Of a stretch of 36,508 nucleotides of DNA, positions 1 through 36,508 are shown piece by piece. The position numbers were made by a program, and so were the translations under genes. Source of the stretch: a virus; IMG/VR virus record IMGVR_UViG_3300013115_000539, positions 1 to 36,508 of that record. The stretch is one strand, 5' to 3'. The notes below the pieces were generated by a model. That model had not been told where the DNA came from. It did no database searches and saw only the letters and a list, made by a program, of their open reading frames with translations. Within the stretch, counting starts at the first letter, position 1, and each line of letters starts with the position of its first letter.

Positions 1-192
1 CTAGTCGGCTACATAGCAGGATCGGCCGCCCACTATGATCACGCCCTCGGGTCCGGCCTCGTCGCTGGCCTCGCGCTCGCTGACGGTAGCGGGGCGGATA
101 TCGTCTCCGGTCTGGTAGTCGACTAGCGTACCGTGGTCGGTTTGAGTTTCGGTGCTGGTGCTGTCGATGTCGATGTCGCTGGCGAGGCTCAT
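1..192 (-). CDS. hypothetical small acidic protein (63 aa)
   Basis: A 63-residue acidic protein, rich in Asp, Glu, Ser and Thr, with no recognisable domain, signal peptide or membrane segment. The ATG at 192 follows a GGGG-containing stretch that could serve as a ribosome site, and the TAG stop is the very first triplet of the window. It is the last gene of the leftward early/middle unit. If the ends of the window are joined, it lies directly upstream of the small terminase. Function unknown. Confidence 0.5.
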   Translation of the reverse strand: MSLASDIDIDSTSTETQTDHGTLVDYQTGDDIRPATVSEREASDEAGPEGVIIVGGRSCYVAD

Positions 193-247
193 ACCCCGAA
201 AGCCGCGTCTGGTAGGTACGCGGCCGGGGTCGATTGAGTGGTCGAGG

Positions 248-451
248 TCACTCTCGCACTAACACTAGGGGGAGGCCATCATCGGACAGGTTAAGGGAAT
301 CGCCGGCCTTGGAGTTATTGAGCCAAATCTCCAAGCGCTCTAACCCGGAGCGGGTGAGAGTGTCACGCATATCAGCGGTCGTTAGTCCCTCGGACTTCCA
401 GGCTGATTTTGCGTCTGATGGGATGCCGAAAGTGTTTGCTGCGTTGCTCAT
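248..451 (-). CDS. hypothetical small protein (67 aa) behind an operator-flanked promoter
   Basis: A 67-residue protein starting MSNAANTFGIPSD, with a helical middle (LERLEIWLNNSK) and no recognised family. The ATG at 451 lies only about 9 bases from a good -10 hexamer, so its mRNA would be nearly leaderless. The promoter carries two copies of an ACCC-GGGT palindrome. First genes behind such promoters are often small regulators, so a self-regulating or late-gene switch protein is possible. That is inferred from position only. Confidence 0.55.
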   Translation of the reverse strand: MSNAANTFGIPSDAKSAWKSEGLTTADMRDTLTRSGLERLEIWLNNSKAGDSLNLSDDGLPLVLVRE

Positions 452-459
452 GAATAGAG

Positions 460-487
460 ACTATACCCTATGGGTTCACAGTGCAAC
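460..487 (-). promoter_or_regulatory. predicted sigma70-type promoter reading leftward
   Basis: On the minus strand, TATAGT (460-465) is a good -10. TTGCAC (481-486), or GTTGCA (482-487), is the best -35, giving a spacer of 15 or 16 bases. It drives the gene at 248-451 and, if the genome is circular, could read on into the terminase and virion operon. The spacer is short for a strong unaided promoter, so an activator may be involved. Confidence 0.45.
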
Positions 488-498
488 CCCCTAGGGTT
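465..498. promoter_or_regulatory. twin operator-like palindromes over the 460-487 promoter
   Basis: Two related inverted repeats: ACCC-TAT-GGGT at 465-475 fills the spacer, and AACCC-CCTA-GGGTT at 485-498 overlaps and extends beyond the -35. Their centres are about 21 bp apart, close to two helical turns, as expected for a dimer binding cooperatively on one face of the DNA. The binding protein is unknown; candidates are the product of 248-451 or one of the ribbon-helix-helix-like proteins. Confidence 0.5.
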
Positions 499-560
499 AC
501 TTAGTTCCCCCGAATTCGGCACTTTAGCGATTTATCTTCAATCACCCGCGCACTTTCGCG

Positions 561-731
561 CTATCCCCCGAAACGCTCTAGCAGCTCCGGGGCGGCGTGG
601 AGCGGCACTAGGAGCACGAGGCCGGCGATCCACACGGGGGCGCGCATACGGGGGCGCTCCCAGCCCCAGAGGGTAGCGCGGGCTGTGTGCTCGCATGCGA
701 TCGAGAGCGCGGTGAGGATAGCGCGGGCCAT
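561..731 (-). CDS. small membrane protein (56 aa), holin or spanin candidate
   Basis: A 56-residue protein, MARAILTALSIACEHTARA then RMRAPVWIAGLVLLVPLHAA, with one clear hydrophobic helix at about residues 30-46 and a weaker hydrophobic N-terminus. The ATG at 731 overlaps the stop of the upstream gene by one base (TGATG), so translation is probably coupled. Small membrane proteins near lysis genes are often holins, but the endolysin is 1.6 kb upstream and nothing here is diagnostic. Confidence 0.5.
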   Translation of the reverse strand: MARAILTALSIACEHTARATLWGWERPRMRAPVWIAGLVLLVPLHAAPELLERFGG

Positions 732-3790: not shown

Positions 3791-3817
3791 TGCGTGCACC
3801 CTAGCACGCATTCAGGC

Positions 3818-3863
3818 TCTTTTTGGCTCTTTTTCAAATGTTTGTTTGTTCAGTGTGGGCGCA
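3818..3863. repeat. 46-bp direct repeat, copy B
   Basis: Perfect match to 1580-1625, in the same orientation, about 2.24 kb away. It overlaps the last few codons of the leftward gene ending at 3850 and lies just upstream of the leftward gene starting at 3790. Both copies thus sit between the end of one gene and the start of the next, consistent with a mobile promoter/leader element. Confidence 0.95.
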
Positions 3864-4116
3864 TGACGAGCGGGCGAGCGGATGCAACCAGCCTGCGCGC
3901 GCGATCTGTGCGCCTGCGCAGCCGCGCTAGGCGTCGCTCAGCGCGGCGGATCGCCCGTGTCCCGCCTCGCCTCGCCCGCAGTCTGCGCAATTCTGACTCT
4001 GCTGCATTCTCGATCTCCAACAATTCCCTGAGGCGCCGAGATAGAGCCGCATGGTGCTGCGCTGGCGTGCGCCGCCTGAGTCGATCCCAAGCCCTGCTAG
4101 CTATCTCCCTGATCAT
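3850..4116 (-). CDS. basic coiled-coil protein (88 aa), spanin-like position
   Basis: An 88-residue, very Arg-rich protein beginning MIREIASRAWDRLRRRTPAQ with a long helical region of Glu/Arg repeats (LSRRLRELLEIENAAESELR, RRAERRLARLRRR). It may bind nucleic acid or form a charged coiled coil. It overlaps the end of the upstream membrane-protein gene by 20 bases, an arrangement seen for holin-spanin pairs, but it lacks an obvious membrane anchor. The start at 4116 has AAGGCG upstream. Its stop lies inside repeat copy B. Confidence 0.5.
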   Translation of the reverse strand: MIREIASRAWDRLRRRTPAQHHAALSRRLRELLEIENAAESELRRLRARRGGTRAIRRAERRLARLRRRTDRARRLVASARPLVMRPH

Positions 4117-4373: not shown

Positions 4374-4859
4374 TCACCTGCCCATCTGGGGCATAGCCGT
4401 TAGCTCGATGCGGAGCGAGCACTCGCGCGGGATAGCTGTGCTGAGTGTCGATGTGATCTCGTTTTCTACGATCTGCGCGTCCTTGAGGACTAGGCCACCA
4501 AATCCCTTCCGTGTTTCGATGGCGTCCCGTATGGCAGTGAGGCACGCGTCGGAATCCGGCTGTGGAAATTCGAAGGCGCCGATCGCAAGGCGCAAGCGGC
4601 AGACCTGTTCAACCTGCAGCCTGTAGAATCCCAAGCCGACCTCAAGGCCTCGACAGTGCGCGGCGATCAGTTGGCGAAAGTGTGCCTGGCGCGGGCTAAC
4701 GATCTTGCCGCCTCGCCCGTTCGGATTGTGCGCCCTGTTTTTCGTAGGCATCAGAGCTCCCCCGATCTTGCCTGTCTTCTTTGATCTCTCCCTGTAGAAA
4801 TCCCGATCTTCTACCTCGATGATTATGCAGGTCGGCCAGCGCTGCTTGAACACCTTCAA
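4374..4859 (-). CDS. rusA-like: RusA-like Holliday junction resolvase (161 aa)
   Basis: RusA-type resolvases are small dimers that cut four-way junctions using conserved aspartates. Here PTKNRAHNPNGRGGK (38-52) resembles the family's conserved basic N-terminal part. PDSDACLTAIRDAIE (101-115) and VLKDAQIVE (124-132) supply the acidic residues (Asp102, Asp104, Asp112, Asp127), though the usual DN dipeptide of the first motif is missing. It lies directly after the ERF gene, a common phage pair for recombination-dependent replication and for clearing branched DNA before packaging. The TTG at 4859 overlaps the upstream stop. Confidence 0.75.
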   Translation of the reverse strand: MKVFKQRWPTCIIIEVEDRDFYRERSKKTGKIGGALMPTKNRAHNPNGRGGKIVSPRQAHFRQLIAAHCRGLEVGLGFYRLQVEQVCRLRLAIGAFEFPQPDSDACLTAIRDAIETRKGFGGLVLKDAQIVENEITSTLSTAIPRECSLRIELTAMPQMGR

Positions 4860-5716
4860 GCGCCGTTCTCCTGCGCCGCGTCGAATGCTGCCTCAGCTCG
4901 CGCGTCATGATCGGGCCGGCCGTTGATCTCTACGCTAAAATCGTGAGCCTCCTTTAGCGCGTCGACATCATCCATCTGTTTCCACTCCATCAGGAATTGT
5001 AGCGACTCGTCTACCAATTCGATCTGTTCGTCGATCTTGCCCCGGCCCGGCCACTCGTCCGCGCGACTTGCCCACACCATAAATTTAATTTTGTTTTGCG
5101 TGTGCCATTCGACGTTGGCGGCCTTGAAAAACTCGGGGCCATTAGTATTCACAAGCTCGCCTTTCGCCTTGAGGATTTTTTGCTTCTTCGCGTGTTCCTT
5201 GCGCGCCGCGGTCTCGGCCTTTACTCGCGCCTTTTGCTGCTCGCTCGCGTATGCTTGGATTATTGCATCGTCTTGGGAATCTCGCTCGTCCGCCTCATCT
5301 ACGCGCGGAATAGTGAGCGCGCCGCGAAGTGTGTAGCTGAGATCGTAGGTTTTCGCCGTGGCCAGTGCCTTGTCGAATAATTTCCCCTTCCCAACATGTA
5401 TCGGTGTTTCGCTGAAATACGGCTTTGCCTCGCCTGACTCGTGGATCATCTCATACTCAGCGATAAGCATCGCATCACATGGACCCCGCGCCGGCTCGAC
5501 CCTGGTTCGGATCGCCGTGAACGCCAGGCCGGTTTCCCGCATCACTGACAGCGCCGCGAGCATCATCGCCTCAGCGCTCGCGTACCTATAGCCGTGGTGC
5601 TGATTGTTGCCGTCCTTCTCGACGCCCCTCATCATGGCTTGCGCCTTGACCAGTGCGGCATAAAGCGCGGCTGTGGGTTTCGCTTCTTCGATTGTGTTTG
5701 TTTCGCTGTTTTCCAT
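4856..5716 (-). CDS. erf-like: ERF-family single-strand DNA annealing protein (286 aa)
   Basis: ERF proteins anneal complementary single strands and circularise or recombine phage DNA. The N-terminal 140 residues fit the family: an initial helix (AALYAALVKAQAMMRGVEKD, 16-35), the HHGYRYASAEAMM region (40-52), a central beta-rich part and the late signature GKLFDKALATAKTYDLSYTL (111-130). It is followed by an acidic, Lys-rich linker and a C-terminal helical extension. It is the first protein gene after the tRNA-like element and overlaps the RusA-like gene by four bases. ATG at 5716. Confidence 0.85.
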   Translation of the reverse strand: MENSETNTIEEAKPTAALYAALVKAQAMMRGVEKDGNNQHHGYRYASAEAMMLAALSVMRETGLAFTAIRTRVEPARGPCDAMLIAEYEMIHESGEAKPYFSETPIHVGKGKLFDKALATAKTYDLSYTLRGALTIPRVDEADERDSQDDAIIQAYASEQQKARVKAETAARKEHAKKQKILKAKGELVNTNGPEFFKAANVEWHTQNKIKFMVWASRADEWPGRGKIDEQIELVDESLQFLMEWKQMDDVDALKEAHDFSVEINGRPDHDARAEAAFDAAQENGA

Positions 5717-6508: not shown

Positions 6509-7024
6509 ATGAGCGAAGGCATCCCTCCAAGGTTCGACCCTGACGCGGATCCGCTGATCAAGCAGATAGCACGCGCCGCCAACTACCTAGGCGACATCGC
6601 AGGCCAGCTAGCACGCATCGCTGACTCCCTCCAAGGCTCACGTGCTCACACGGTAGGTGCTCAGCCTGCAGAGCACACGGCCCCGGCTGGCGCCTCTCAC
6701 GAGGCTGTTTGGGCTCAAATTAGAACGGAACTGATCGCCATGGGAACGGGCGAGACCTGGCCACGAAGCGCCCCGATCGGATTCGATCAAGTGGCTGCAG
6801 ATTATGACGTGCTGGACATCATCACGAGGTGCCAAAAATATGAAGAGATCTGCGCTAAATCATCCGATGAGCGGCGTTGGTGGGGGCGTGGGATGTTCAA
6901 AGAAACGAGATGGCCTGTAGTGATGGACAAAACAAAGCCGATCCCCAAGCCTAAGCGCGAACTGCCTAGCCCAATGGACCCCGGCACCGTCGCACTTCTT
7001 GGGGCCTATGGGGTCCGGGTGTGA
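6509..7024 (+). CDS. hypothetical protein, first gene of rightward unit (171 aa)
   Basis: A 171-residue protein. Residues about 1-45 (DPLIKQIARAANYLGDIAGQ, LARIADSLQG) form a helix, followed by a Pro/Ala/His-rich linker and a C-terminal part rich in Trp and basic residues (DERRWWGRGMFKETRWPVV). No family recognised. The ATG at 6509 has GAGG seven bases upstream and follows the divergent control region, so this is the first protein made from the rightward promoter. Its stop overlaps the next GTG. Confidence 0.6.
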   Translation: MSEGIPPRFDPDADPLIKQIARAANYLGDIAGQLARIADSLQGSRAHTVGAQPAEHTAPAGASHEAVWAQIRTELIAMGTGETWPRSAPIGFDQVAADYDVLDIITRCQKYEEICAKSSDERRWWGRGMFKETRWPVVMDKTKPIPKPKRELPSPMDPGTVALLGAYGVRV

Positions 7025-7236: not shown

Positions 7237-7552
7237 GAAAATAACAAGAGATCGAAACCTGAAATTGGTTAGTGGCGTGCTGAGTACAATGTCAGCGCCT
7301 ACACAGTGTGAAGGGCTAGCGCTACTGCAGCGCAGGCGCAGTGAATGGAAGGGGCACGGATCGCCTGAAGCGCGGCGCATCTTTCACGCCCTTGACTATT
7401 ATTGCGACGTTGCGCGTTGGGCTGCAGCCGGCGGCACAGGGGAGGCCCCGCGCCTTGCCCTCATGGGCACGCTATTTTCAGACGGCAAACTCCCGCGCGA
7501 AGCGGTAGAGGTCGCAACAGAGGCAGCGCGGTTAGTGAGAGAGAGCAAATGA
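7226..7552 (+). CDS. hypothetical protein (108 aa), N-terminal paralogue of the next gene
   Basis: A 108-residue helical protein starting MNDKKITRDRNLKLVSGVLS. The segment TRDRNL is repeated at the same place in the next protein, with matching DNA, so the two gene starts share ancestry. The rest (LALLQRRRSEWKGHGSPEAR, ALDYYCDVARWAAAGGTGEA) is not recognised. The ATG at 7226 has AGGA about nine bases upstream. Its stop overlaps the next start (ATGA). Confidence 0.55.
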   Translation: MNDKKITRDRNLKLVSGVLSTMSAPTQCEGLALLQRRRSEWKGHGSPEARRIFHALDYYCDVARWAAAGGTGEAPRLALMGTLFSDGKLPREAVEVATEAARLVRESK

Positions 7553-7941
7553 GCAAAGACAGCGAAACAAAAACGAGAGATCGAAACCTTGAGGAAATTG
7601 CGCGGCTGCTAGGTCGGCCGGTCACGCCTAAGCAGGTGGTGATCGAGTCAGCGCTAGACCGCGCGAAGCGGGCCGCACCGAAAGGGGGGCGCGTGATGGA
7701 GGAAGCCAAGCGAAAAGCGATCTCGATGCTCGACGTTTTTGAATGCGACGACGGGCGCAGGGTGGTCCATACGAGGGCTGGCGGGATCGGGGCCGACTGG
7801 GATGAATCAACGGCCGTTGAGTTCATTATGGGGGCCGATGAGCTGTTCAGACCCGGCCCCTTCTCCCGAGCCCTAGGGCATCGCATAGGGGCATGCAATG
7901 GAGGGAGAGATGTTGTGTTTGAGACCAAGGGGGGCGCGTGA
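7549..7941 (+). CDS. hypothetical protein, apparent fusion across a junction repeat (130 aa)
   Basis: Residues 1-45 (MSKDSETKTRDRNLEEIARL ... RAAPKGG) continue without a stop into MEEAKRKAISMLDVFECDDG and end ETKGGA. The join, at 7681-7698, is a copy of the sequence that elsewhere ends one gene in KGGA-stop and starts the next with ATG. Here one extra A shifts the frame, so the stop is skipped and two ancestral genes are read as one. A downstream ATG at 7696 could still give an 81-aa product. Function unknown. Confidence 0.55.
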   Translation: MSKDSETKTRDRNLEEIARLLGRPVTPKQVVIESALDRAKRAAPKGGRVMEEAKRKAISMLDVFECDDGRRVVHTRAGGIGADWDESTAVEFIMGADELFRPGPFSRALGHRIGACNGGRDVVFETKGGA

Positions 7942-8198
7942 TGGCCAAGCAGGACATTCAGCTACCTGGAGGATGGAAGTGGTCCAGCGATTACTGCTTG
8001 TCTATCTGCGCTGAGATCAGCGAGCCCGGCGGCTCTTTCGCTTTTGAGGTACAGGGCGACGCGATCGAATTTTCAGTCGAGGTGCCGTCCGGTTGGTGCG
8101 GCGCAACATCCACAGATTACTACTCGATCCCGCTGGATGTGCTACGGGTGGCGCTAGATGTGGCCGCTAAGCTCGATACACCGAAGGGGGGCGCGTGA
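7941..8198 (+). CDS. hypothetical cassette protein (85 aa)
   Basis: An 85-residue, mostly beta-strand protein (MAKQDIQLPGGWKWSSDYCL, SFAFEVQGDAIEFSVEVPSG) ending DTPKGGA. It resembles no family I know; the alternating pattern suggests a small beta sandwich or barrel. ATG at 7941 overlaps the upstream stop by one base (TGATG) and is preceded by a six-G tract. Both ends are copies of the junction repeat. Confidence 0.55.
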   Translation: MAKQDIQLPGGWKWSSDYCLSICAEISEPGGSFAFEVQGDAIEFSVEVPSGWCGATSTDYYSIPLDVLRVALDVAAKLDTPKGGA

Positions 8199-8425
8199 TG
8201 CGGCTTCTTGGAAAAACCGCATGGGCCGTGGGTGAGCTTCGGCGCAACGGGGGTGGATCGCTCATCGTTCCCAGCGAGACGCACGCGCGCGGAATAGCCG
8301 CCAAGTGGGGTGGCGTCGCACGATTCGCGCCGCGAAAGGGTGCCGCGAGCACGCTCAATCCGAGGCCGCCCGGGACATGGTTCGTTGACTTCTGCGGAAG
8401 CGATACACCGAAGGGGGGCGCGTGA
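8198..8425 (+). CDS. hypothetical cassette protein (75 aa)
   Basis: A 75-residue basic protein (MRLLGKTAWAVGELRRNGGG, SLIVPSETHARGIAAKWGGV) ending SDTPKGGA, the same C-terminal peptide as the preceding protein although the rest is unrelated. ATG at 8198 overlaps the upstream stop (TGATG). Flanked on both sides by the 27-base junction repeat. Function unknown. Confidence 0.5.
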   Translation: MRLLGKTAWAVGELRRNGGGSLIVPSETHARGIAAKWGGVARFAPRKGAASTLNPRPPGTWFVDFCGSDTPKGGA

Positions 8426-8757
8426 TGGCCAACCGCGACCAGACAATGTTGAGCGCCCGCGTTGCGTCTGCCATCGTCTCAGAGCTGCTAGCGGGCCCTG
8501 TGCCGCGCGCTGAGCTTATGCGCCGCACTGGTGTATCTAATGGGACGATAGGGCGCGCGGTGTCACTGCTTAGGCAGAGCGGCGTCGTGATCGATAACTC
8601 AGGCGCGGGCGGCTCGGTGTACTCGCTGAGAAGGCCGGAAGGCGTGCGGGATAGGCTGGCCGGTGCGCTGCGCTTATCCTTGGGTGACCTAATCGCGGCG
8701 GGCGGGGTGTCTCCTGCGGTAGGCGTGGGCCTGCTGATTGAGGCGGGCTGCATCTAG
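8425..8757 (+). CDS. winged-helix DNA-binding protein (110 aa)
   Basis: Residues 10-70 fit a winged helix: helix 1 RVASAIVSELLAGPVPRAEL, recognition segment MRRTGVSNGTIGRAVSLLRQ and wing GVVIDNSGAGGSVYSLRR. The C-terminal part (LAGALRLSLGDLIAAGGVSP) is helical and may dimerise. Likely a transcription regulator of the rightward unit or of host genes. ATG at 8425 lies in the fourth junction repeat; the stop overlaps the GTG of the next gene (TAGTG). Confidence 0.65.
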   Translation: MANRDQTMLSARVASAIVSELLAGPVPRAELMRRTGVSNGTIGRAVSLLRQSGVVIDNSGAGGSVYSLRRPEGVRDRLAGALRLSLGDLIAAGGVSPAVGVGLLIEAGCI

Positions 8758-9293
8758 TGGACCAGGGAGAGAGATGGCTTCCGGTCGTCGGGTACGAGGG
8801 CGTCTATGAAGTAAGCGATCGCGGGCGCGTGAAACGCCTAGCGAACGTGGTCACCATGAAGAACGGCGTGCGTCGCTCGCTACGCGAAATCATGCTCAAG
8901 TGCGGCCCAGACAAAAACGGCTACCCATACGTAAACCTCACCACCGACAAGAGGGCGCGGCACTGGTTCGTCCATCGCCTGGTGCTCCTTGCATTCAGGG
9001 GGCCTCCGCCAGATGGCCACGAGGCGTGTCATGGCGATGGCGACAAAACAAACGGCCGCCTGGGAAATCTTAGATGGGGAACGAAGATGGATAACGAAAT
9101 GGACAAACTCATACACGGAACGCGTTTCTTTGGGGAGAAGCACTGGAAGAATAGGCTCTCCGCAAATGATGCCGTTGCAATCAAGGTGATGCTCAAACGC
9201 GGAGACTCGCATGCTGTGATAGCGGCGCGCTTCGGCGTGTCCACGGGAGCCGTGAATGGCATCAAGGCCGGCCGGAGTTGGAGTTGGCTGTGA
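8757..9293 (+). CDS. NUMOD4-HNH endonuclease (178 aa)
   Basis: A typical free-standing phage HNH nuclease with three parts. NUMOD4 lies at about 6-50 (ERWLPVVGYEGVYEVSDRGR). The HNH domain is at about 70-115 (HWFVHRLVLLAF, then HEACHGDGDKTNGRLGNLRW), with the catalytic-type His and Asn visible. A C-terminal helix-turn-helix DNA-reading domain is at about 132-172 (NRLSANDAVAIKVMLKRGDS, HAVIAARFGVSTGAVNGIKA). Such proteins nick or cut specific DNA and spread by homing. GTG start at 8757. Confidence 0.9.
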   Translation: MDQGERWLPVVGYEGVYEVSDRGRVKRLANVVTMKNGVRRSLREIMLKCGPDKNGYPYVNLTTDKRARHWFVHRLVLLAFRGPPPDGHEACHGDGDKTNGRLGNLRWGTKMDNEMDKLIHGTRFFGEKHWKNRLSANDAVAIKVMLKRGDSHAVIAARFGVSTGAVNGIKAGRSWSWL

Positions 9294-20373: not shown

Positions 20374-20900
20374 TTAGTCCGTGATTCCCAGGGCGATCGC
20401 TGCCCTCATATACCAGCCGTTCAGTTGATCGAGAGTAACGCCTTCGAAATCCCTCGGCTTCCATCCAAAGGTGCGCGCGACTATTGCGATCTGGCTGTCA
20501 ATGAGGCCGCCCCGCTCTAGTCCTTTCCCGCAACAGCGTCGTCCGTAGCCTGAATAACGATCTGGTAATCTTGATAGGACATTCGCCCCATCATCTCGGC
20601 AGACACGCGCCCGCCTCCCGTGTTGCTGCCTGTCAGGATGCAACAGATCGCAAGCTCTCGCGAGCGCTGCCCGGTGTCTGGGTATTCGTCCATGCGCACG
20701 GCATCGCCTGCCGTGAATGATCGCCTGATGCTCACCTTGTCAGGCGGCGCCATGGGCGGATTCTCGCGCTCAGCCTTTACCCGCTCGGGGTCATCGTGCG
20801 GCGCCCATTTGTAGATCTGAATTTCGAAATGTGTAGGCGTAACAGTTACGCGATCGTCATCCCGCCAGGTCTTCTCATCGCTGTTTGCATCTTCGCTCAT
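20374..20900 (-). CDS. tail assembly chaperone, -1 frameshift extension (175 aa)
   Basis: If ribosomes slip back one base at GGGAAAG (20523-20529), translation continues past the chaperone stop for 49 more codons: GLERGGLIDSQIAIVARTFG, WKPRDFEGVTLDQLNGWYMR, AAIALGITD. This corresponds to lambda gpGT, P2 E+E' and the Mu gp41/gp42 region. The extended form is thought to bring the tape measure to the tube protein. Downstream residues resemble small GpE-like segments. The product ends five bases before the tape measure gene. Confidence 0.75.
20517..20900 (-). CDS. tail assembly chaperone, short form, Mu gp41 position (127 aa)
   Basis: A 127-residue acidic protein, MSEDANSDEKTWRDDDRVTV, ending YQIVIQATDDAVAGKD. 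It lies between tube and tape measure, where chaperones of the lambda gpG kind are encoded. The ATG at 20900 is the first one not overlapping the tube gene. The last codons contain the slippery heptamer, one codon before the TAG stop. Confidence 0.8.
   Translation of the reverse strand: MSEDANSDEKTWRDDDRVTVTPTHFEIQIYKWAPHDDPERVKAERENPPMAPPDKVSIRRSFTAGDAVRMDEYPDTGQRSRELAICCILTGSNTGGGRVSAEMMGRMSYQDYQIVIQATDDAVAGKD
20523..20529 (-). other. programmed -1 ribosomal frameshift site GGGAAAG
   Basis: The minus strand reads GCG GGA AAG GAC TAG in the zero frame, so the heptamer is G GGA AAG, exactly the X-XXY-YYZ arrangement and identical to the lambda G-T slippery site. Only one codon separates it from the zero-frame stop at 20517-20519. 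Confidence 0.8.
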
Positions 20901-20916
20901 GGCGGAAGGATAGCAC

Positions 20917-21276
20917 TTAGAATGATTTCGCGGGCTGCCCCTCAAGGCTCACTGAGATGGTTCCGGCCCCCGAGTCCAGCTCAGGCGGATCGCCGACCCT
21001 TGTCGCCTGAGTAACAAGGAACACTGCGCCGGTGTCCGTCACCAACATCAGGGTTGCGTCCGTCACATCGAAATCAGAAACGGCAACACCGGGCCCGTGC
21101 GCGATAACCATGCTGGCCCCGCCTGGCGCAACGTCTGTGACCTTGTAACCTTGGGGCTTGAATTGGCCCTTGACGGTTTCGCGGACCTCCCCGCCAAACA
21201 TAATAGTGGGCCCCTCTGTCGTGCCCATCTTAATGTTGTTTATGAAAACTTCCGCGCGTCCTGTTAACTGTGCCAT
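20917..21276 (-). CDS. tail tube protein, Mu gpM/gp40 family (119 aa)
   Basis: A small beta-barrel tube protein, one hexameric ring per sheath ring. MAQLTGRAEVFINNIKMGTT, MFGGEVRETVKGQFKPQGYK and FDVTDATLMLVTDTGAVFLV follow the Mu gp40 pattern, including its length of about 118 residues. It lies directly after the sheath gene as expected. Confidence 0.88.
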   Translation of the reverse strand: MAQLTGRAEVFINNIKMGTTEGPTIMFGGEVRETVKGQFKPQGYKVTDVAPGGASMVIAHGPGVAVSDFDVTDATLMLVTDTGAVFLVTQATRVGDPPELDSGAGTISVSLEGQPAKSF

Positions 21277-21296
21277 TTGATTGGTCTCCTATCTTC

Positions 21297-22760
21297 CTAG
21301 AGCTTGAAGGCGATAGTTCCTGCCAGGATTCTGAACTGATTAACGGTGTCAGGGTTACCGCTATATTCGAGCCGATCGGGGTCAACCTGGCTTCTCTCTA
21401 CAATGAGCGATTTGGTAAACCCTTCCACATCCTCAAGGATCCCCGCATCCTCAAACACCTCAAAGACCCCGATGATCTCAGCCTTCGCTGTTGATGGCGT
21501 CATTACCCTTTGGCCCGGGCCAAAGTTGTTCCCATCGTCCGCTAGTTTATATCTTGCGAATTTCGAGAAGTGCGAATTGATGGCATCCCTAAACACAAGC
21601 ACAGTTAAAACTGTGTTCAAATTCTTGTAGCTGATGTCAGGGCTTCCGCCTGGATTCGTCTGATACGAAGTTACGATCCGCTCAATTTTCACGGTGCCGT
21701 CGTCGGCTACGCGGGTGGTTGCGATCCCGTCACCAAGCAGTGTATTGCGCTCGGGTCTGCTCCTGCGCTGGCCGGCACCCTCGGGCGCACCTGCGACACC
21801 TGGCAAGCCTAGCGTCTGGAACGGCATAGCGGGATCCGGCTCCCCTGCCATGATAGCGATCCCTGAGGCCATCGCCTCAAAGAGTGGAGACGCTGTACCC
21901 GGATCCAATTCTGGATACACCTGAAGCTGTGAGTTCCTGGCGTTCCCGTATATGGTCAGATTTGCCGTTGAATCATTTACGGCGGTAAAACTGATCCCCC
22001 ACTGCTGATCCTCGGGCCCGAATCTGGAATCTAGCTCATCCTTCATTAGATTCTGAGCTGTCGTGTTCGGATAGGGGAGGTGGATATGCGTGTACTGGCT
22101 GTCAACCATCGCCGCTACAGCGGGAACGATCGACGGATCGCCCGTGCCGCCTGTCTGCACTACAGTGGGCGCAGGGATCCCAGGCGGAAAAGACTCGCGC
22201 ACCCCACGATTGAATTGGATCGTGATTGAATCCCCCGCTTCGCCTGTGAATTTACTCTCAAGTGTGCACAGGTTCGAAGCTACAGACTTCTCTACCATTG
22301 GTAGCGTCGATTTGGCATCCACAGCCGCGCCGATCTTCGTTGCCACTGCATCCTGATCGTCCCCCTCAGCGACAAGCACAGGCACATATTGGCCGCCTAC
22401 ATACAGGTGCAAGGTTGAATTTGCAGTGGATGTCCCGGCGGGAACGGTGATCGCCTGCTCCGCCTTCGTGGATCCGCCAGCCTCGGCAAGTGCAATCGCG
22501 TAGACTGGTATGGATGAATTTGCGCTTACCGCCTGTGAGACCTGGCGATCCAGCATGCTCCCGGTGCCCCATTGTTCCGCGTCTGAGTCAGAGAACATCT
22601 GGACGACAGTATTAACCGGCCCCGATGATCCCGCCGCGGCTGTTCCGATCAGGAGCACCTTATATGATGTCGCAGCCGTAGCCTGTACCGCTGCTGAGTT
22701 GTCAATGGATGCATAACGTCCGGGTAGATTTGTCTGGGGAACGCCTGTAACGAGTGCCAT
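21297..22760 (-). CDS. contractile tail sheath protein, Mu gpL family (487 aa)
   Basis: The presence of a sheath gene defines the phage as a myovirus. The protein starts MALVTGVPQTNLPGRYASID and has the early beta-rich domain (SYKVLLIGTAAAGSSGPVNT, VVQMFSDSDAEQWGTGSMLD). Its C-terminal domain has the typical late motifs GVAGAPEGAGQRRSRPERNT, LLGDGIATTRVADDGTVKIE and RIVTSYQTNPGGSPDISYKN. Length matches Mu gpL (about 495 aa). ATG at 22760 immediately follows the upstream stop. Confidence 0.92.
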   Translation of the reverse strand: MALVTGVPQTNLPGRYASIDNSAAVQATAATSYKVLLIGTAAAGSSGPVNTVVQMFSDSDAEQWGTGSMLDRQVSQAVSANSSIPVYAIALAEAGGSTKAEQAITVPAGTSTANSTLHLYVGGQYVPVLVAEGDDQDAVATKIGAAVDAKSTLPMVEKSVASNLCTLESKFTGEAGDSITIQFNRGVRESFPPGIPAPTVVQTGGTGDPSIVPAVAAMVDSQYTHIHLPYPNTTAQNLMKDELDSRFGPEDQQWGISFTAVNDSTANLTIYGNARNSQLQVYPELDPGTASPLFEAMASGIAIMAGEPDPAMPFQTLGLPGVAGAPEGAGQRRSRPERNTLLGDGIATTRVADDGTVKIERIVTSYQTNPGGSPDISYKNLNTVLTVLVFRDAINSHFSKFARYKLADDGNNFGPGQRVMTPSTAKAEIIGVFEVFEDAGILEDVEGFTKSLIVERSQVDPDRLEYSGNPDTVNQFRILAGTIAFKL

Positions 22761-23045
22761 TTAGATTGCCTCTGTATCCTTCGCCTCAGGTTCTGAGGCC
22801 TTGATCTTCCGTGCGCGCTTTTTCTGCGCCTTCTTTTTTTGGGTCTTTTTTTGGCCTGGCCGATCGTGGGGATAACCGTCGATCTCAAGATCCCCCGCCA
22901 TGTATGCCCGGTGCAGATCTGGCGTTACCTGGAGCGACTCTTGCTGGGCGATCGCGCTTCGGCCGTTGTTGAATTTGACCATCACTGGCGAGCCGTCCGG
23001 GTGCCGCTTCGCTGGCCTCATGCTGTATTTTTTAGGGCTCGCCAT
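22761..23045 (-). CDS. Mu gp38-like small protein, DUF2635 type, with Lys-rich tail (94 aa)
   Basis: It has the position and size of Mu gp38. The N-terminal part (MRPAKRHPDGSPVMVKFNNG, then a late MAGDLEIDGYP) fits the DUF2635 outline, with an added Lys-rich tail (KKTQKKKAQKKRARKIK) that could bind nucleic acid. The tail is encoded by two tandem A AAA AAG heptamers in slip-prone phase. The start at 23045 overlaps the upstream stop (TAATG). Confidence 0.65.
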   Translation of the reverse strand: MASPKKYSMRPAKRHPDGSPVMVKFNNGRSAIAQQESLQVTPDLHRAYMAGDLEIDGYPHDRPGQKKTQKKKAQKKRARKIKASEPEAKDTEAI

Positions 23046-23701
23046 TATGTGAATATTACCTCACCCAGAGCCGGCGGCGTGCCGCCGTCTGGGTGTATGT
23101 CCCCAAAGATGGTATTGAGATCCGGCAACAGATTTAGGTTTATGTTGCCGATCTGAACATCGTGAGACCACTGAATCTCGAAAAGCGAAAAGCCCATTCT
23201 GTCAAGCTTCGCTGAGTACTTGTTGGATGCCCCGATCTCGTTCGCGCGCCGCCAAGGGTATCGCGGATCATCCACTCGGCGTGCCGGTGAAAAACTCGAA
23301 TCGAGCACCTTGGGCGGCACCATCTGATTAACTAGAGACAACACGATCCCCATCATAGAAACCCCGTAGTGGTATCTACCTTTCTCTTCACCAAGATCTG
23401 CGCCAGTCCCGTTGGCAGTGATCCCGGCGGCAGCAAATCGAACCTTTACTATCGGGGCAGCCCCGGAACTATCGATCGATCCGCTCGTGCCTAGACACGT
23501 GACAAATAGCGCCGGTACCTTGAAGCCGAGCCGGGTTGTTTCATTTGCATCTATCTGGCCCCGCCATCTCTCGATCGTCTTGAAAAAAGATTTCCCGTAC
23601 TGCTGCAGGTAGTTGACCGCCCACGCCTCTAGCCTTCCGACTTCTGCGCCCGCGATCCCATCTCTTGCGTTTACCGCGCCGTCTATAACCTCAAGCGCCA
23701 T
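23045..23701 (-). CDS. Mu gp37-like tail terminator/connector, DUF1834 (218 aa)
   Basis: The gp37 family (DUF1834) forms the tail end ring. Here the helical start AVNYLQQYGKSFFKTIERWR is followed by beta segments (VPALFVTCLGTSGSIDSS, GRYHYGVSMMGIVLSLVNQM). Near the end FSLFEIQWSHDVQIGNI precedes a short C-terminus. Its place between the gpG-like protein and gp38 matches Mu. Overlaps the upstream stop by one base. Confidence 0.8.
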   Translation of the reverse strand: MALEVIDGAVNARDGIAGAEVGRLEAWAVNYLQQYGKSFFKTIERWRGQIDANETTRLGFKVPALFVTCLGTSGSIDSSGAAPIVKVRFAAAGITANGTGADLGEEKGRYHYGVSMMGIVLSLVNQMVPPKVLDSSFSPARRVDDPRYPWRRANEIGASNKYSAKLDRMGFSLFEIQWSHDVQIGNINLNLLPDLNTIFGDIHPDGGTPPALGEVIFT

Positions 23702-24162
23702 CAGAAGGAGCCTTCCCAGATCTCACCAGCTAGATCGCTGATGTCTTCCGTGTCGTCATCAGTCACGCCTAACCATGGGCGCGCAGGGAGATCGCGCGGG
23801 CTGGCCTCTGCACCGAAGGCGCCAATAGTTACCCCGATCGATTCGCTGCCGTACTGATTGAAAGTGCCATAATCAATCCGCGTGCCTACCTGCGCCGCGC
23901 CGCGCTGTGCCTCTGCGTGCATTGTATTGAATAGCGCCAAGGTCTCGCGCAGTTTCCCTGGCCCCTTTTTGCGGGATCCGTATGGTTCGCTTAGCGGCTC
24001 CCATGGGGTGCCCTCTGGATCGATCTCGTCGATCATGCGAAGCCGCGTGTTGTCCCTGACCGCGCGGGCATACTTTCCCATAGTCGACTTTATGAAAAGC
24101 CGGGAAACTGCGCGCTCGATCTGCGCAGCCTTGACGCCCTCTATCGTGATCTCCACGCTCAC
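23701..24162 (-). CDS. phage virion morphogenesis protein, Mu gpG / P2 gpS type (153 aa)
   Basis: The protein begins VSVEITIEGVKAAQIERAVS and carries the conserved KYARAVRDNTRLRMIDEIDP, EGTPWEPLSEPYGSRKKGPG, GTRIDYGTFNQYGS and PARPWLGVTDDDTEDI. These are hallmarks of this tail-completion family: the P-W/F-x-P-L segment, Y-x-x-x-H/Q-Q-x-G, and P-R/A-R-P-W-L-G. GTG at 24162 overlaps the gp36 stop (TAGTG) and is preferred to a start at 24213. Confidence 0.87.
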   Translation of the reverse strand: MSVEITIEGVKAAQIERAVSRLFIKSTMGKYARAVRDNTRLRMIDEIDPEGTPWEPLSEPYGSRKKGPGKLRETLALFNTMHAEAQRGAAQVGTRIDYGTFNQYGSESIGVTIGAFGAEASPRDLPARPWLGVTDDDTEDISDLAGEIWEGSF

Positions 24163-24593
24163 TAGATCACCTCGCTTAATTGCGATCGAGTTAATAGCCT
24201 CGCGTTGGCGCACACCTGCGAGGAGTTGGCCTGCACAACCGCCGATCCGCCTGGGTTGATCGTGCCGTCTGCAATCATCCTCAGCTGCTCCATCGCCTCA
24301 TCTCTGCGTTTGGCGATAAGATCAGTCATCGATGCCCACGTTTCAGCAAGATAATAGATCGCCAGATCTGCTGTACACCTCTTGATCCATGCCCAAGCGT
24401 CATCCGTTTCGGCGTTTGCGATAGGCACAGCAAATCTCGTGCTCAGAAACTTGTTTATTTCAGATTCGGCATCAGTAATGGCAAGCGCTACAGAGGGAAG
24501 ATCCACGAATCCATCACAGTTCCGATCTGCGACGCCCTGCAGATAGTCTAGACCATATCTGTCCACTATCTCCTGCGCGGTAATGTATGCCAT
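24162..24593 (-). CDS. head-tail connector, Mu gp36-like, DUF1320 (143 aa)
   Basis: DUF1320 proteins are adaptor-type connectors below the portal. MAYITAQEIVDRYGLDYLQG (with Y-I-T-x-x-x-I/D-R at the start), then LPSVALAITDAESEINKFLS, TRFAVPIANAETDDAWAWIK and CTADLAIYYLAETWASMTDL fit the family well. It is separated from the capsid gene by a 72-base gap with a GC-rich hairpin. Confidence 0.88.
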   Translation of the reverse strand: MAYITAQEIVDRYGLDYLQGVADRNCDGFVDLPSVALAITDAESEINKFLSTRFAVPIANAETDDAWAWIKRCTADLAIYYLAETWASMTDLIAKRRDEAMEQLRMIADGTINPGGSAVVQANSSQVCANARLLTRSQLSEVI

Positions 24594-24616
24594 CGAAAGA
24601 GCCTTTCACCGCCTGT

Positions 24617-24644
24617 GCCCCGCCGCGGCTATGCCGGACGGGGC
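24617..24644 (-). other. GC-rich hairpin between capsid and connector genes
   Basis: Minus-strand GCCCCG pairs with CGGGGC, enclosing an inner CGGC-ATA-GCCG stem. No T-tract follows, so it is not a classical intrinsic terminator. Its place just after the major capsid gene suggests it could protect the 3' end of capsid mRNA or lower expression of the downstream tail genes. Confidence 0.5.
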
Positions 24645-24665
24645 CAAGGGCGCAACACAGACGCC

Positions 24666-25589
24666 TTATGCGAGGAACGGATTGACCACAACCTCCGCGG
24701 CGCCGCGGAGAATGTTAGACGAGCCCGAGCTGTTTCGCTCATTCTGCATCAGTTGCAGGGCTGTTGTCTCAAGCTCCGGGGGAACCATCAGAACATTAGG
24801 CTGAACCATGATTGGCCGATCTCCGTCGCCCCTGAATCGCCGCATTTGCGCACGGGCATCAGAGAACCCGGCGAAGTCGAGGGTAGCTGTACTCTGAAAG
24901 ACCCTGTGTGGCATCGCAGGCGCAACGGCAACACGCGAGAACGCTCCGACGAGGTGCTCACGGCGCATGAATCCGCGCTCGCTGTTCTCGACGTCAGCAC
25001 TGAGAACCTCAAGACTATAAGCCTCTCGCGTCTGAAAAAGAACGGCGCGGCTACTGGTGCGCGTATCCATCAAGAACCACTTAGGGCCAGCCCCTGTGGT
25101 GTCGATGTTGGACCAATCCGAACCCTTCTTAAGCGGGTGAGCTGCGCCAATAAGCGGCGTCCCATCATAGCAAAGGGCTGTAGTCCCCTGGAGATCAAGG
25201 AACTCCCAAGAAAGGCGATCTTTGTGCTCGGCTGCTGCCTCGCCCATCTTTGTGATGTAGTCGCTAATTCCCTGAATGCGCGAGCGATCAAGCAACGCAT
25301 CCCGCTTGATTCCATAGGTAAGCTCGAAATCATCATTTACGACGGTGAATTCACTACCGGAAAGCTCGCGAACTTTGCGCTCGCCTTCCCATTTCTGCAT
25401 TCCAATCGACTGCGACAGAAAAGTGTAGATGTTCTGCTCTGTGTCGCTTTCGACATCCATCAGCAGGCCGCCGGCCTGGCTGTGTACGGTCATCGCATTT
25501 TCAAATGCGCTTTTGAAAATATCCGGAAAGATCTGAGTCAAATAGACCTCAGAGCTAAACGGCTGGCTTCCTGTAACGTTGGTTCCCAT
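24666..25589 (-). CDS. major capsid protein, Mu gpT family (307 aa)
   Basis: A Mu gpT-type HK97-fold shell protein of the usual length (about 305). The N-terminus is FSSEVYLTQIFPDIFKSAFE, followed by SIGMQKWEGERKVRELSGSE, the helix LDRSRIQGISDYITKMGEAA and, further on, GTTALCYDGTPLIGAAHPL, matching the family's F-x-x-H-P/G-x-x-L-F-S-x-x-H region. The C-terminal MVPPELETTALQLMQNE is also typical (P-P-x-L-E-x-x-A). Confidence 0.92.
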   Translation of the reverse strand: MGTNVTGSQPFSSEVYLTQIFPDIFKSAFENAMTVHSQAGGLLMDVESDTEQNIYTFLSQSIGMQKWEGERKVRELSGSEFTVVNDDFELTYGIKRDALLDRSRIQGISDYITKMGEAAAEHKDRLSWEFLDLQGTTALCYDGTPLIGAAHPLKKGSDWSNIDTTGAGPKWFLMDTRTSSRAVLFQTREAYSLEVLSADVENSERGFMRREHLVGAFSRVAVAPAMPHRVFQSTATLDFAGFSDARAQMRRFRGDGDRPIMVQPNVLMVPPELETTALQLMQNERNSSGSSNILRGAAEVVVNPFLA

Positions 25590-25607
25590 CGTTCGATTCC
25601 TTTCAGA

Positions 25608-26000
25608 CTAGAGCACGGTACGGGTGTCAACCCAAACGAGCCCCTCTGCGTCGATGCTGGTGATCTTGCCGGCGACTAGGCCCGTGCCTGCTGCTGGTGA
25701 AAAGGTAATACTCGTTCCGTCGTTTCCGACCTTGCCAGCTAAACCGACATCGGCCTGGGTGACAGGCGCCGCCACATCGTTCTCGAATCCGACGTATCCG
25801 CGCGCGAATTTGATGACATCACCGATTGCGCCGCCACTCTCAGACCAACCGAGAAAGGTAACAGCGGCTCCGCTTCCCGCAGGGACCAAAAGGCCCGCGG
25901 CGTTCAGCGCAACAAGGTTCGACGGATCAATGGCCTCAGCGGCAACGGCGGTTTGCGTAACCGGCGTGCCGAGAGTGGCCATGTTTGTTGAAACGGTCAT
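25608..26000 (-). CDS. capsid decoration-like protein (130 aa)
   Basis: A small beta-rich protein between protease and capsid: AEAIDPSNLVALNAAGLLVP, AGSGAAVTFLGWSESGGAIG, VIKFARGYVGFENDVAAPVT, ADVGLAGKVGNDGTSITF. The pattern of a short beta barrel with a value-state-label-like arrangement is shared with capsid cement proteins of Mu-like and other phages (Mu gp33 position). ATG at 26000 overlaps the protease stop (ATGA). Confidence 0.7.
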   Translation of the reverse strand: MTVSTNMATLGTPVTQTAVAAEAIDPSNLVALNAAGLLVPAGSGAAVTFLGWSESGGAIGDVIKFARGYVGFENDVAAPVTQADVGLAGKVGNDGTSITFSPAAGTGLVAGKITSIDAEGLVWVDTRTVL

Positions 26001-26545
26001 TGGTTTCTTTCCTCAAATTTCTTTCTAGAGAACGCGAGAGGCACGCCGGCCGCCTTGGAGAATTCCTCGGCTGTGTCATACCCTGCGATGTAGCTAGCTT
26101 CGGTTGTGCCCTTGGGCGGTTCAGTGAGCCCGGGCGTGACCTTGGTCAATCCCATGTCCGGCTTGACGGAAAACAGATCCACGAGGCCTGTCAAGCCGGC
26201 CTCGTCTCGCGCGATCGCTGTGTATTTGTCAACTTCAGCAGGCGTGATCTTGCCAGCCTCTAGGGCTCCCATGATTGCCTGATCGCGCTTCACCTCAAAC
26301 GCCTCAGCGGCACGATCTGCGTCTGCCCTCTCTAGCATCTCGATCTTGCCAAGGGCATTTGCCAATTGGCCCTTGCTCGCCTCAAGCAATTCGATCGTGG
26401 ATCCGTGCTCCAGCTTAAGGGCAGCGAAGGCTTCCGCGTCTCGCTTATGCGAAACAACTAGCGCTGTGATCTCGTCGTGCGTCGCGTCCTTTTGGAGCCC
26501 TAGCACAGCGCGCACGCCTGATGGGTTGTTGGTTTTTTCTGACAT
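25997..26545 (-). CDS. possible internal start giving a separate scaffold protein (182 aa)
   Basis: Inside the protease gene an ATG at 26545 (MSEKTNNPSGVRAVLGLQKD) lies just after the proteolytic domain and has AGAGAAAG about seven bases upstream. In Mu the scaffold gpZ is made from an in-frame internal start of gene I. The helical content here (SHKRDAEAFAALKLEHGSTI, IEMLERADADRAAEAFEVKR) fits a scaffold. Inferred from the Mu precedent and the start signal. Confidence 0.45.
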   Translation of the reverse strand: MSEKTNNPSGVRAVLGLQKDATHDEITALVVSHKRDAEAFAALKLEHGSTIELLEASKGQLANALGKIEMLERADADRAAEAFEVKRDQAIMGALEAGKITPAEVDKYTAIARDEAGLTGLVDLFSVKPDMGLTKVTPGLTEPPKGTTEASYIAGYDTAEEFSKAAGVPLAFSRKKFEERNQ

Positions 26546-27106
26546 ATCTGCACTTTCTCTATTGTTTAGCGCTGGCATTCTTAGCGCTGGTGTGTTCGTC
26601 AGCGCAGCCGAGGTAAATTGCTGAATCACCCGCGTTTCGGCGTCAGGAATAAAAGCGGGTGAAATATACCTGACAGATCTAGACGCCACGCTCCTTGCGC
26701 CGTCTTCCGTCCACTCAACATCCGCAACAAGTAGCCCGCCCTCGATTCTCATGCTCGCAGGATCGATCCAGGCCGCCGCCCATGCCTCCCTCACCGGGTG
26801 CCCGCTCTCAGCGTCGTGCCACCAGTCGAGCACAAAACCGTCTGGGTAATCGGCGCGCGTTCTCGCTATGACATCCGAGACATCTTCCTCCGGGAGTCGA
26901 AAAAAACGGCCGTCGCGCGCCTCAACATCACCGATCGGTGCAAGGGGGATCGTCGTCGGCACAGTGCCGCGCGACTCGTCACCGTCACCGTCGAGAGCAA
27001 ATAGATCGATCGCGCCACCAGCGAAAGAGGCGCGAGCCGGATCGGCGTCAGTCGTCGGCACGGACGGCACGCACCCATTGTGGGGGCGAATCCGTTCGCG
27101 TGTCAA
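25997..27106 (-). CDS. prohead protease with C-terminal scaffold, Mu gpI type (369 aa)
   Basis: The protease processes the capsid scaffold and other head proteins. LFALDGDGDES (about 35-45) is the usual beginning. FVLDWWHDAESGHPVREAWA (91-110) holds the catalytic-type His, and RSVRYISPAF (143-152) holds the conserved Ser; SAALTNTPALRM (166-177) ends the domain. The remainder, helical and Glu/Ala-rich, is the scaffold. The start is uncertain: a TTG at 27106, or GTGs at 27070 and 27064, none with a clear ribosome site. Confidence 0.85.
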   Translation of the reverse strand: MTRERIRPHNGCVPSVPTTDADPARASFAGGAIDLFALDGDGDESRGTVPTTIPLAPIGDVEARDGRFFRLPEEDVSDVIARTRADYPDGFVLDWWHDAESGHPVREAWAAAWIDPASMRIEGGLLVADVEWTEDGARSVASRSVRYISPAFIPDAETRVIQQFTSAALTNTPALRMPALNNRESADMSEKTNNPSGVRAVLGLQKDATHDEITALVVSHKRDAEAFAALKLEHGSTIELLEASKGQLANALGKIEMLERADADRAAEAFEVKRDQAIMGALEAGKITPAEVDKYTAIARDEAGLTGLVDLFSVKPDMGLTKVTPGLTEPPKGTTEASYIAGYDTAEEFSKAAGVPLAFSRKKFEERNQ

Positions 27107-27149
27107 GAATAGTGTATAGCGCAGATTGCGCGCTGCTATTTATATCTAA
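27107..27149 (-). promoter_or_regulatory. AT-rich gap with a small inverted repeat upstream of the protease gene
   Basis: One of the larger non-coding gaps within the virion operon. It contains GCGCA-GAT-TGCGC (27119-27131) and AT-rich stretches (TAGATATAAATAG on the minus strand, and TATACACTATTC). No convincing -35/-10 pair was found and no T-run follows the hairpin. It could be a processing site or a weak internal promoter. Confidence 0.25.
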
Positions 27150-28118
27150 TCACCGATCGCGGATCCCTGCGATCGCTCGCGTAACATCTGGGGATCTCCT
27201 TATCGAATTGATCCCCCAATAGATCACCGTGCTGCTGTGCTGCTGCGCGTCATCAATTGCCGCGCGCATCGCTGATCCGGCAGAGTGCCCGCGGATCCCT
27301 GTCTGGCGATAGGCCGCGAGCGCGGGGACGATCCGGATCTCTTCTCCGAATTTATCTCGCCATTGCCTGACGCCCCTGCTGACGACTGTCGACGGATCAG
27401 CCTTGCTCGTGCTTGTGCTGTAGCACTGGGGCACCGCGTAGTCACACACAGCGATCAGCGGGCCAAGCTTTCGCCTCGGGGCATATCGGATCCCTGTCAC
27501 TCCCATTTCGAATTTCCGTCCTGCGAACAGCGACGCCACAAGAGATGCAACCTCTGAGTAATTCATCGGGTTACGCGCCTGGGTAAACGGTTCCTCTGCA
27601 TCCCAGATCAGCGAATTTGCGCCAGTGTCATCCATGAGGGGGATCAGGAATTTTGCAGCATCCTCCAAATATTCCCTATGGGGCATGATCCACGACATCA
27701 GATGGACATCGATCCCGGAGGCATGGCACTCGCCCGCCAAGCGGATCAGCCTTTCTCGCGTCCTTATGCTGAATTTCTGCTTTTTTCGCCAGGCGCTGTG
27801 ATCGTTAACGATGATGTCTGCGCGATTAATTCCGGCCGAAACCATAGCGGCGACATCTCTCGCGGGGTGCGATAGCGACGCGGATCCAGCCCATGCGCCC
27901 ACTGTCTGGATCCGTGTTCGCGCCGCCTCTATTTTTCCGATCGGCGGCGCGTCTGGTCCTTCCTGGTCATCATCTATCGCCGAGTGTGCGCGATCGTGTG
28001 TGCCGCCTGTGAGCTTGGCGAGTTGATCGCCTGGCCTCACAAGTGCCCAGCGCGCAACCCTTATAATATTACCCGCCACCCAGATCAGCACCCTTGGAAT
28101 ACTACCCGCCGCTGACAT
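27150..28118 (-). CDS. putative TIM-barrel glycosidase-like protein in the head gene block (322 aa)
   Basis: After an amphipathic N-terminus (VLIWVAGNIIRVARWALV, 10-27), residues about 70-315 show regularly spaced strands of a TIM barrel: ADIIVNDHS (100-108), GIDVHLMSWIMP (135-146), SLIWDAEEPF (169-178), FEMGVTGIRY (203-212), CDYAVPQCYS (225-234), IRIVPALAAY, TVIYWGINSI. WDAEEP carries acidic residues at the end of strand four, the usual catalytic place of glycoside hydrolases such as GH25. Possibly a virion-borne wall or polysaccharide hydrolase. It overlaps the gpF-like gene by 17 bases; GAGG precedes the ATG. Confidence 0.55.
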   Translation of the reverse strand: MSAAGSIPRVLIWVAGNIIRVARWALVRPGDQLAKLTGGTHDRAHSAIDDDQEGPDAPPIGKIEAARTRIQTVGAWAGSASLSHPARDVAAMVSAGINRADIIVNDHSAWRKKQKFSIRTRERLIRLAGECHASGIDVHLMSWIMPHREYLEDAAKFLIPLMDDTGANSLIWDAEEPFTQARNPMNYSEVASLVASLFAGRKFEMGVTGIRYAPRRKLGPLIAVCDYAVPQCYSTSTSKADPSTVVSRGVRQWRDKFGEEIRIVPALAAYRQTGIRGHSAGSAMRAAIDDAQQHSSTVIYWGINSIRRSPDVTRAIAGIRDR

Positions 28119-28821
28119 CTGGCCTCGACTCTAGCACAGGCACAGCTTCACACCTGCAGCCGGGTGCAACGCCTGGATCGCCGTCCTGTGGCGGGTCCGC
28201 CCACCTGAAGCGCTCACCGTCTCGCTGCTCGTGTAGCGGTCTCACCTCAGAATCCCGCTGCGTCAGCCAATCGTATTCCCCGATCTCGTTCGCAAAATTG
28301 AATTGCGAAGCATATTCGGTGTTCATGCTGTCCGACTCCCAAGCGGCGATCCTATCCGCTCGGCCTTGCGTCATCGTGAACACCAGATCGGCGCCAGCTA
28401 TCGCGCGGGCGATCCGCTCGTCCTTTGTTCCGCGGGTCATCAGCGCCGCCAGCATATGCGCCTCAAGCTTGGCGATTGCCTCGACCCTGATGCTCTCTAC
28501 TAGATCCTCATTGCGAATAAGCATCACCGATTCGATCCTATCCGTATCAGCCGCCTCTGCTTTGCTGTGGATCTCCGCGCGTTCGTCTGCGCCGTCTGTC
28601 AGCTTGGCAATCTGATCGTCAAACATCCCAAGCGCGGCGGGGCGCATGCGTTCCACGTGCTCGGCTGCAGCACGATCGGCCGCCTCCCCTGGCTTGCCTG
28701 CGATGCGACGGGAAGCCCGCCCAAGCGCGGCGTGTAGTGCCGCGCGGGTCGATGGTCGCAACCCGCCCCCATCGTCTAGCCTTACCATTGCGCCGAGCCT
28801 TGACAGCACCTCGGCACCCAC
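28102..28821 (-). CDS. minor head protein, Mu gpF-like (239 aa or longer)
   Basis: The C-terminal motif of the family is clear: EIGEYDWLTQRDSEVRPLHE, then GERFRWADPPQDGDPGV and GCRCEAVPV. These correspond to the W-x-x-x-x-D-x-R-V-R-x-x-H, D-G-x-x-F-x-W and C-R-C elements. The protein is thought to attach at the portal and assist head assembly or DNA ejection. The first standard start is GTG at 28821, but the frame is open and coding-like (DRAAHAYARDLQKYVAELEA) back to an ATA at 28887 that overlaps the portal stop. Confidence 0.82.
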   Translation of the reverse strand: MGAEVLSRLGAMVRLDDGGGLRPSTRAALHAALGRASRRIAGKPGEAADRAAAEHVERMRPAALGMFDDQIAKLTDGADERAEIHSKAEAADTDRIESVMLIRNEDLVESIRVEAIAKLEAHMLAALMTRGTKDERIARAIAGADLVFTMTQGRADRIAAWESDSMNTEYASQFNFANEIGEYDWLTQRDSEVRPLHEQRDGERFRWADPPQDGDPGVAPGCRCEAVPVLESRPDVSGG

Positions 28822-28883
28822 GATCGCCTCAAGCTCTGCTACGTATTTTTGGAGATCCCGCGCGTAGGCATGTGCGGCGCGAT

Positions 28884-30383: not shown

Positions 30384-30384
30384 T

Positions 30385-31866: not shown

Positions 31867-31867
31867 G

Positions 31868-34655: not shown

Positions 34656-34667
34656 TGGAAATTTCCC

Positions 34668-35030: not shown

Positions 35031-35033
35031 GCG

Positions 35034-35402: not shown

Positions 35403-35432
35403 GGCGCAAGCATAGCACGCGCGGCAAGCGCC

Positions 35433-35555: not shown

Positions 35556-35590
35556 GCGCGCGCAACAGATCGCGCGCGCAATTATTCCCG

Positions 35591-36387: not shown

Positions 36388-36508
36388 TCGCGCCCCCTGC
36401 GCAATCATGTTAGCGCGCATCCTTCGCGCTGTCCACGCACACGAAATCCGTGCAAATGCAGCGGATGTAGCGCGTGGAGAATACCTCGCCAGCCGCTGAG
36501 CATGTCTC

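Follow-up and report, generated by a model that had tools for sequence, protein, structure and literature searches.

A repeated stop, ribosome-site and start joint between unrelated small genes of a phage operon, with a comparable array in a relative

Introduction

Start-Associated Sequences (SAS and ESAS) are known from Cluster K mycobacteriophages and Cluster EF Microbacterium phages (PMC3203893, PMC7302621). In a Cluster O mycobacteriophage, gene-sized insertions and deletions at Catdawg 95-97 were inferred by the authors to arise by recombination between two 17-bp repeats (PMC4351075). Translational coupling, usually dependent on a Shine-Dalgarno (SD) site, has been experimentally established at TGATG overlaps (PMC6728339). 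Of interest is how phages gain small accessory genes singly, without breaking their dense operons. Annealing recombinases promote mosaicism and, to our knowledge, most mosaic joints show no visible homology. The mobile regulatory cassettes of the T4 type, reportedly described by Arbiol and colleagues in 2010, are said to be regulatory units that recur from one small accessory gene to the next, for which shuffling was proposed. In arrays whose joints are exact and phage-specific and whose genes are unrelated, gene acquisition can be seen and tested.

The window, i.e., the whole stretch of 36,508 nucleotides analysed here (IMGVR_UViG_3300013115_000539), encodes a Mu-like terminase, portal, sheath, tape measure, and hub. 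The phage is tailed and carries an array of small genes separated by copies of one junction (Table 1).

Table 1. Positions of the junction copies, array genes and other features in the window
Feature	Position	Strand	Remark
127-base promoter-like module copy	438..564	-	Precedes small gene 248-451 (-); other three copies lie beyond the window end, in contig L019
Erf-family single-strand annealing protein	4856..5716	-	Candidate recombinase for short-repeat exchange
ORF D, 130 aa	7549..7941	+	Spans junction copy 1; no family match
Junction copy 1	7681..7698	+	One extra A; upstream frame unstopped, K-G-G-R-V-M read-through
Junction copy 2	7927..7943	+	KGGA stop / SD / TGATG; 22 bases identical to copy 4
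ORF E, 85 aa	7941..8198	+	Ends LDTPKGGA; orphan
Junction copy 3	8174..8200, core 8184-8200	+	Shares 27 bases with copy 4
ORF F, 75 aa	8198..8425	+	Ends SDTPKGGA; orphan
Junction copy 4	8401..8427, core 8411-8427	+	Upstream half identical to copy 3, downstream half to copy 2
ORF G, 110 aa	8425..8757	+	Weak winged-helix/HTH similarity; first gene past the array
NUMOD4-HNH endonuclease	8757..9293	+	Next gene, TAG/GTG overlap

Copies and identity of the junction

The exact 17-mer AAGGGGGGCGCGTGATG was found at 7682, 7927, 8184, and 8411, i.e., at spacings of 245, 257, and 227 bases and within 746 bases in all, as the initial annotation had described for a core occurring four times at 227-257-base spacing. 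No further site within two mismatches was found on either strand of the whole 36,508-nt record. In shuffled sequence, five matches at three mismatches or fewer were never reached; the four copies are not due to chance. The 17-mer was also the sole family of exact repeats of at least 16 bases with at least three separated copies in the 36.5-kb window.

The identity of up to 27 bases between junctions that had been claimed was seen for copies 3 and 4, which share the 27-mer CGATACACCGAAGGGGGGCGCGTGATG (8174-8200 and 8401-8427). Copies 2 and 4 share 22 bases, and the remaining pairs share 17-18. The identity is mosaic, with the two halves of copy 4 matching different copies. When compared with codon shuffles, the tail homology of copies 3 and 4 gave p 0.0045 and that of copies 1 and 3 a weak p 0.036, both uncorrected for the number of pairs. 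Longer tail homology in the other pairs was rejected, as only these two pairs exceeded the shuffles.

Copies 2, 3, and 4 terminate genes as FETKGGA, LDTPKGGA, and SDTPKGGA, respectively, each followed by the stop, and restart at TGATG. At copy 1, the upstream ORF (ATG 7549) reads AAA GGG GGG CGC GTG ATG, i.e., K-G-G-R-V-M, and has its first stop at 7941. This read-through is caused by one extra A (GAAAGGGGGG vs GAAGGGGGG), which may be biological or an assembly error. The earlier claim that the core always ends a gene in K-G-G-A thus stands for copies 2-4, but not for copy 1.

The junction as a probable translational joint

In copies 2-4, AAGGGGGG lies in the last codons of the upstream gene and is followed by the stop/start overlap TGATG, whereas copy 1 has no overlap. 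The computed SD:anti-SD duplex is -10.9 kcal/mol, compared with -12.5 kcal/mol for the canonical site, when an anti-SD of the E. coli type is assumed, which may not be that of the host. The anatomy bears out the proposal that the junction joins gene end, ribosome site, and gene start, the gene end being present in copies 2-4. The last codons of the upstream gene, AAG GGG GGC GCG, would double as the SD site. Because the TGA overlaps the next ATG, a stopping ribosome would reinitiate on the next small gene. Reinitiation at each joint, i.e., translational coupling through an SD site inside the last codons and an overlapping stop and start, is inferred from this anatomy and the published work.

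In a scan of 2.9 million IMG/VR contigs, the exact 17-mer was present in 13 stretches, one per stretch and never two. These stretches represent 11 distinct contexts of widely varying G+C, and the KGGA and stop were in frame in all. The site was placed between ORFs (40 aa or longer, or truncated where the contig ends) in 10 of the 11 contexts. By the same rule, the looser AAGGRGGNCGCGTGATG was between ORFs at 115 of 127 distinct places. For comparison, 14% of all TGATG of the same loci were at ORF joints by the 40-aa rule alone, a background rate that is approximate, as the control loci were mostly chosen by the motif. Since the 17-mer recurs in unrelated phages, nearly always at ORF/ORF joints, the role of the sequence is general, and it is a convergent, generally useful joint.

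Genes of the array

Each of the four copies ends with the start codon ATG of an ORF that is 75 codons or longer. Codon statistics showed a coding-like composition for the three + strand ORFs between the copies and for none on the - strand, and genes on the - strand of the array were thus ruled out. The three ORFs show no mutual similarity outside their tails and are not paralogues, which agrees with the earlier description of unrelated cargo genes. ORF D can alternatively be split into an upstream part (7549-7695) and an ORF from the internal ATG at 7696 (81 aa, ending FETKGGA). No sigma-70-type promoter was found on the + strand inside the array. Anti-host function of the cargo found no support in any library searched. 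In the window, two successive small genes share a near-identical TRDRNL start segment at 7240-7260 and 7569-7589 (90% over 21 bases).

Relatives of the array genes were searched in IMG/VR and INPHARED. IMG/VR scans with ORF D, ORF E, the upstream ORF 6509-7024, and the methylase gene at 9278 gave no homologue, and ORF G gave a single weak segment of 43%. Nothing useful was obtained from INPHARED by blastn and tblastn. Terminase relatives were found in four IMG/VR contigs, none of which covers the array region, and in 33 distant prophage loci. In the collection scan, the exact 17-mer was absent from the related contigs. Cargo exchange through the joints was not seen, as the IMG/VR and INPHARED searches found no relatives for the array ORFs.

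A comparable array in a relative

A related phage, G005 (IMGVR_UViG_3300033388_004178; L022, L025, L026), has a terminase 60% identical to that of the window. In this phage, ATCCAGGCGCTAGGGGGTGGGGAGTGAT was found at 8465, 8686, 8868, and 9358 (reverse-complement coordinates), two copies being exact and two having 2 mismatches. Every copy ends an ORF in AIQALGGGE and the stop, and a GTG start overlaps the stop. The few differences in the tails are synonymous (GCA/GCT, GGG/GGA), and the ORFs between the copies are unrelated outside the tail. This array is located just upstream of the late operon, and its sequence, genes, and genome place are other than those of the window array. Because the junction differs in sequence and genome place, the two arrays are analogous and not orthologous.

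L019, a near-identical contig of the same phage as the window, is identical to window 20388-36508 and 98% identical at window 1-701. Its segment 701-2964 bridges the two ends of the window, from which about 2.26 kb is missing, so that the genome has about 38.8 kb and is either circularly permuted or circular. At the position of the G005 array, a comparable joint is present in L019 as two diverged copies, which end genes in ELLEACE and ELLGASE before the stop. By eye, GCTAGGGGCCTCGGAGTGA and GCTAGGGGGTGGGGAGTGA of these joints match at 15 of 19 bases. The two copies of L019 and the four copies of G005, at the same genome position, may be homologous. The G005 array and the difference between two and four copies would be expected from copying and gene turnover, and serve as indirect evidence.

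Another array was found in L019:138-2200 (+), where four copies of a 127-base module each stand directly before a small gene. Three of these genes begin METTQ. Two ACCC..GGGT palindromes lie in the module, together with a TATA(A/G)-like hexamer that ends only about eight bases upstream of the ATG. It was not called by a consensus promoter scan; from its layout, it would be a regulated promoter with a nearly leaderless message. Between the same small genes, a hairpin (GGCCCGTAGCTCTCAAGAGCACGGGCC) is present in three copies (L019 1085-1128, 1694-1737, and 2406-2449), G+C-rich and terminator-like without a T run. Other repeats of the window are a T-rich 66-base direct repeat at 1569-1634 and 3807-3872 (86% identical, 46 bases exact, 2238 bases apart) and a 21-base unit, CTCGCGTCTCGCCTGGTCTCG, in three tandem copies at 1087-1155.

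Probable copying of the joint

The best explanation, with a probability of roughly 0.6, is a translational-coupling joint that was copied within the phage lineage and placed new short genes in the operon. Copying of the joint within the phage is likely, since the copies are identical and the 17-mer is rare, i.e., four copies here and one per stretch elsewhere. Convergence does not explain four identical copies among non-paralogous genes, which also argues for copying. The four copies would descend from one another by duplication or by short-homology recombination at gene ends. The new short genes would thereby have entered the operon with a ready-made joint, and cargo exchange through the joints is plausible.

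Both phages encode an annealing recombinase, i.e., Erf in the window and RecT in G005, and the phage's own Erf plausibly performs the recombination. For phage D3, recombination of diverged DNA by Erf has been demonstrated, though phage recombinases were tested there on homologies of hundreds of bases, compared with 17-27 bases here (PMC3945230).

Repeated joints were also surveyed at 1169 joints in all, i.e., the 17 of the window and those of 165 other loci, which were mostly chosen by the motif. Three of the 165 loci, i.e., L005, L066, and the related contig G005, had two joints with in-register identity of at least 17 bases. No family of at least three exact 16-mers was found in six other Mu-like phages or in the right part of TM4. 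As a separate observation, at L005:911-1260, at L104:1555-1964, and at the joints of L066, paralogous small genes keep one SD/stop/start joint, and the repetition there arose by gene duplication.

The array of the related phage, with its different joint, suggests that small genes are gained or lost in such phages by copying of one working joint. It is a tentative and rather doubtful extension that each such phage keeps a private junction, serving both as translational joint and as homology arm for its own Erf or RecT, by which small genes are added and dropped. As a signature, exact repeats (at least 16 bases) at the ORF/ORF joints between non-paralogous genes could be sought in all phage genomes and may lead to accessory-gene islands.

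Alternative explanations

An old tandem gene duplication, with bodies diverged beyond recognition and a joint kept by selection, would also give repeated joints, as in L104, L066, and L005, where they derive from paralogues. ORF D and ORF E are also weakly similar in their tails, on the upstream side of the core (p about 0.04, codon shuffle), which points the same way. However, 27 exact bases, including synonymous positions, stand beside bodies without similarity, and the similarity shows no gradient into the genes, so this origin is unlikely. Pure convergence, i.e., host selection for one optimal SD/stop/start joint with no copying, fits the presence of the same 17-mer at ORF joints of unrelated phages. 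It is already disfavoured and quite improbable, because in some pairs the identity goes beyond the functional core by 10 bases upstream and 5 bases downstream, the motif is missing from the other ORF/ORF joints of the window, and G005 repeats a different sequence four times.

Two further readings concern the junction sequence itself. It could be the target of the neighbouring HNH endonuclease, with genes entering by cleavage and repair; a NUMOD4-HNH gene lies directly 3' of the array, and the G005 array has an HNH-like ORF about 1 kb upstream. Endonucleases of this kind occur commonly in phages, though, and none of nine tested small genes of the L019 arrays was an HNH gene, which makes this reading very unlikely. 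The GGGGGGC G run could instead be a -1 frameshift site that makes fusions of neighbouring proteins, copy 1 being a frozen fusion. The heptamer G GGG GGC does fit X XXY YYZ in the upstream frame, and a -1 slip at copies 2-4 would give KGGRVM and the next protein, as copy 1 encodes. This would nevertheless be most surprising, as the G005 junction, A GGG GGT, is without the heptamer and SD pairing already accounts for the G run.

Comparison with known systems

The T4-type cassettes are reportedly promoter and stem-loop units and differ in this from the window joints, which are translational. The promoter and hairpin array of L019 is closer to these cassettes than the junction array of the window is. 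Termination-reinitiation at TGATG resembles the window joints in its SD site at the end of the upstream gene and its stop/start overlap, but it is a general mechanism without repeated identical joints (PMC6728339). Cluster O mycobacteriophages likewise have short (17-bp) repeats between small genes, although these repeats have dyad symmetry, are in many cases located within genes, and do not mark translation starts (PMC4351075).

Similar to the window joints, SAS are phage-specific, over-conserved ribosome-site repeats on several unrelated small genes; they sometimes take in the upstream stop codon, and their sequence differs by phage group (PMC3203893, PMC7302621). The two share the position at the ribosome site, the pairing to 16S rRNA (with an anti-SD of the E. 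coli type assumed), and conservation beyond the SD site, which is 17-27 bases here. In contrast, SAS measure about 13 bp, are dispersed across the genome, stand before the start codon, and vary in sequence, whereas the window joints are exact and clustered in one operon, copies 2-4 carry C-terminal codons and the stop/start overlap, and an inverted repeat of the ESAS type was not noted in them. Genome-wide spread is lacking in the window, with its four copies, and the repeat is not the same in related phages, as that of G005 differs. Because spread and conservation across related phages are lacking, and a shared coding tail and a stop/start overlap are added, the window joints are a variant of SAS and not a member.
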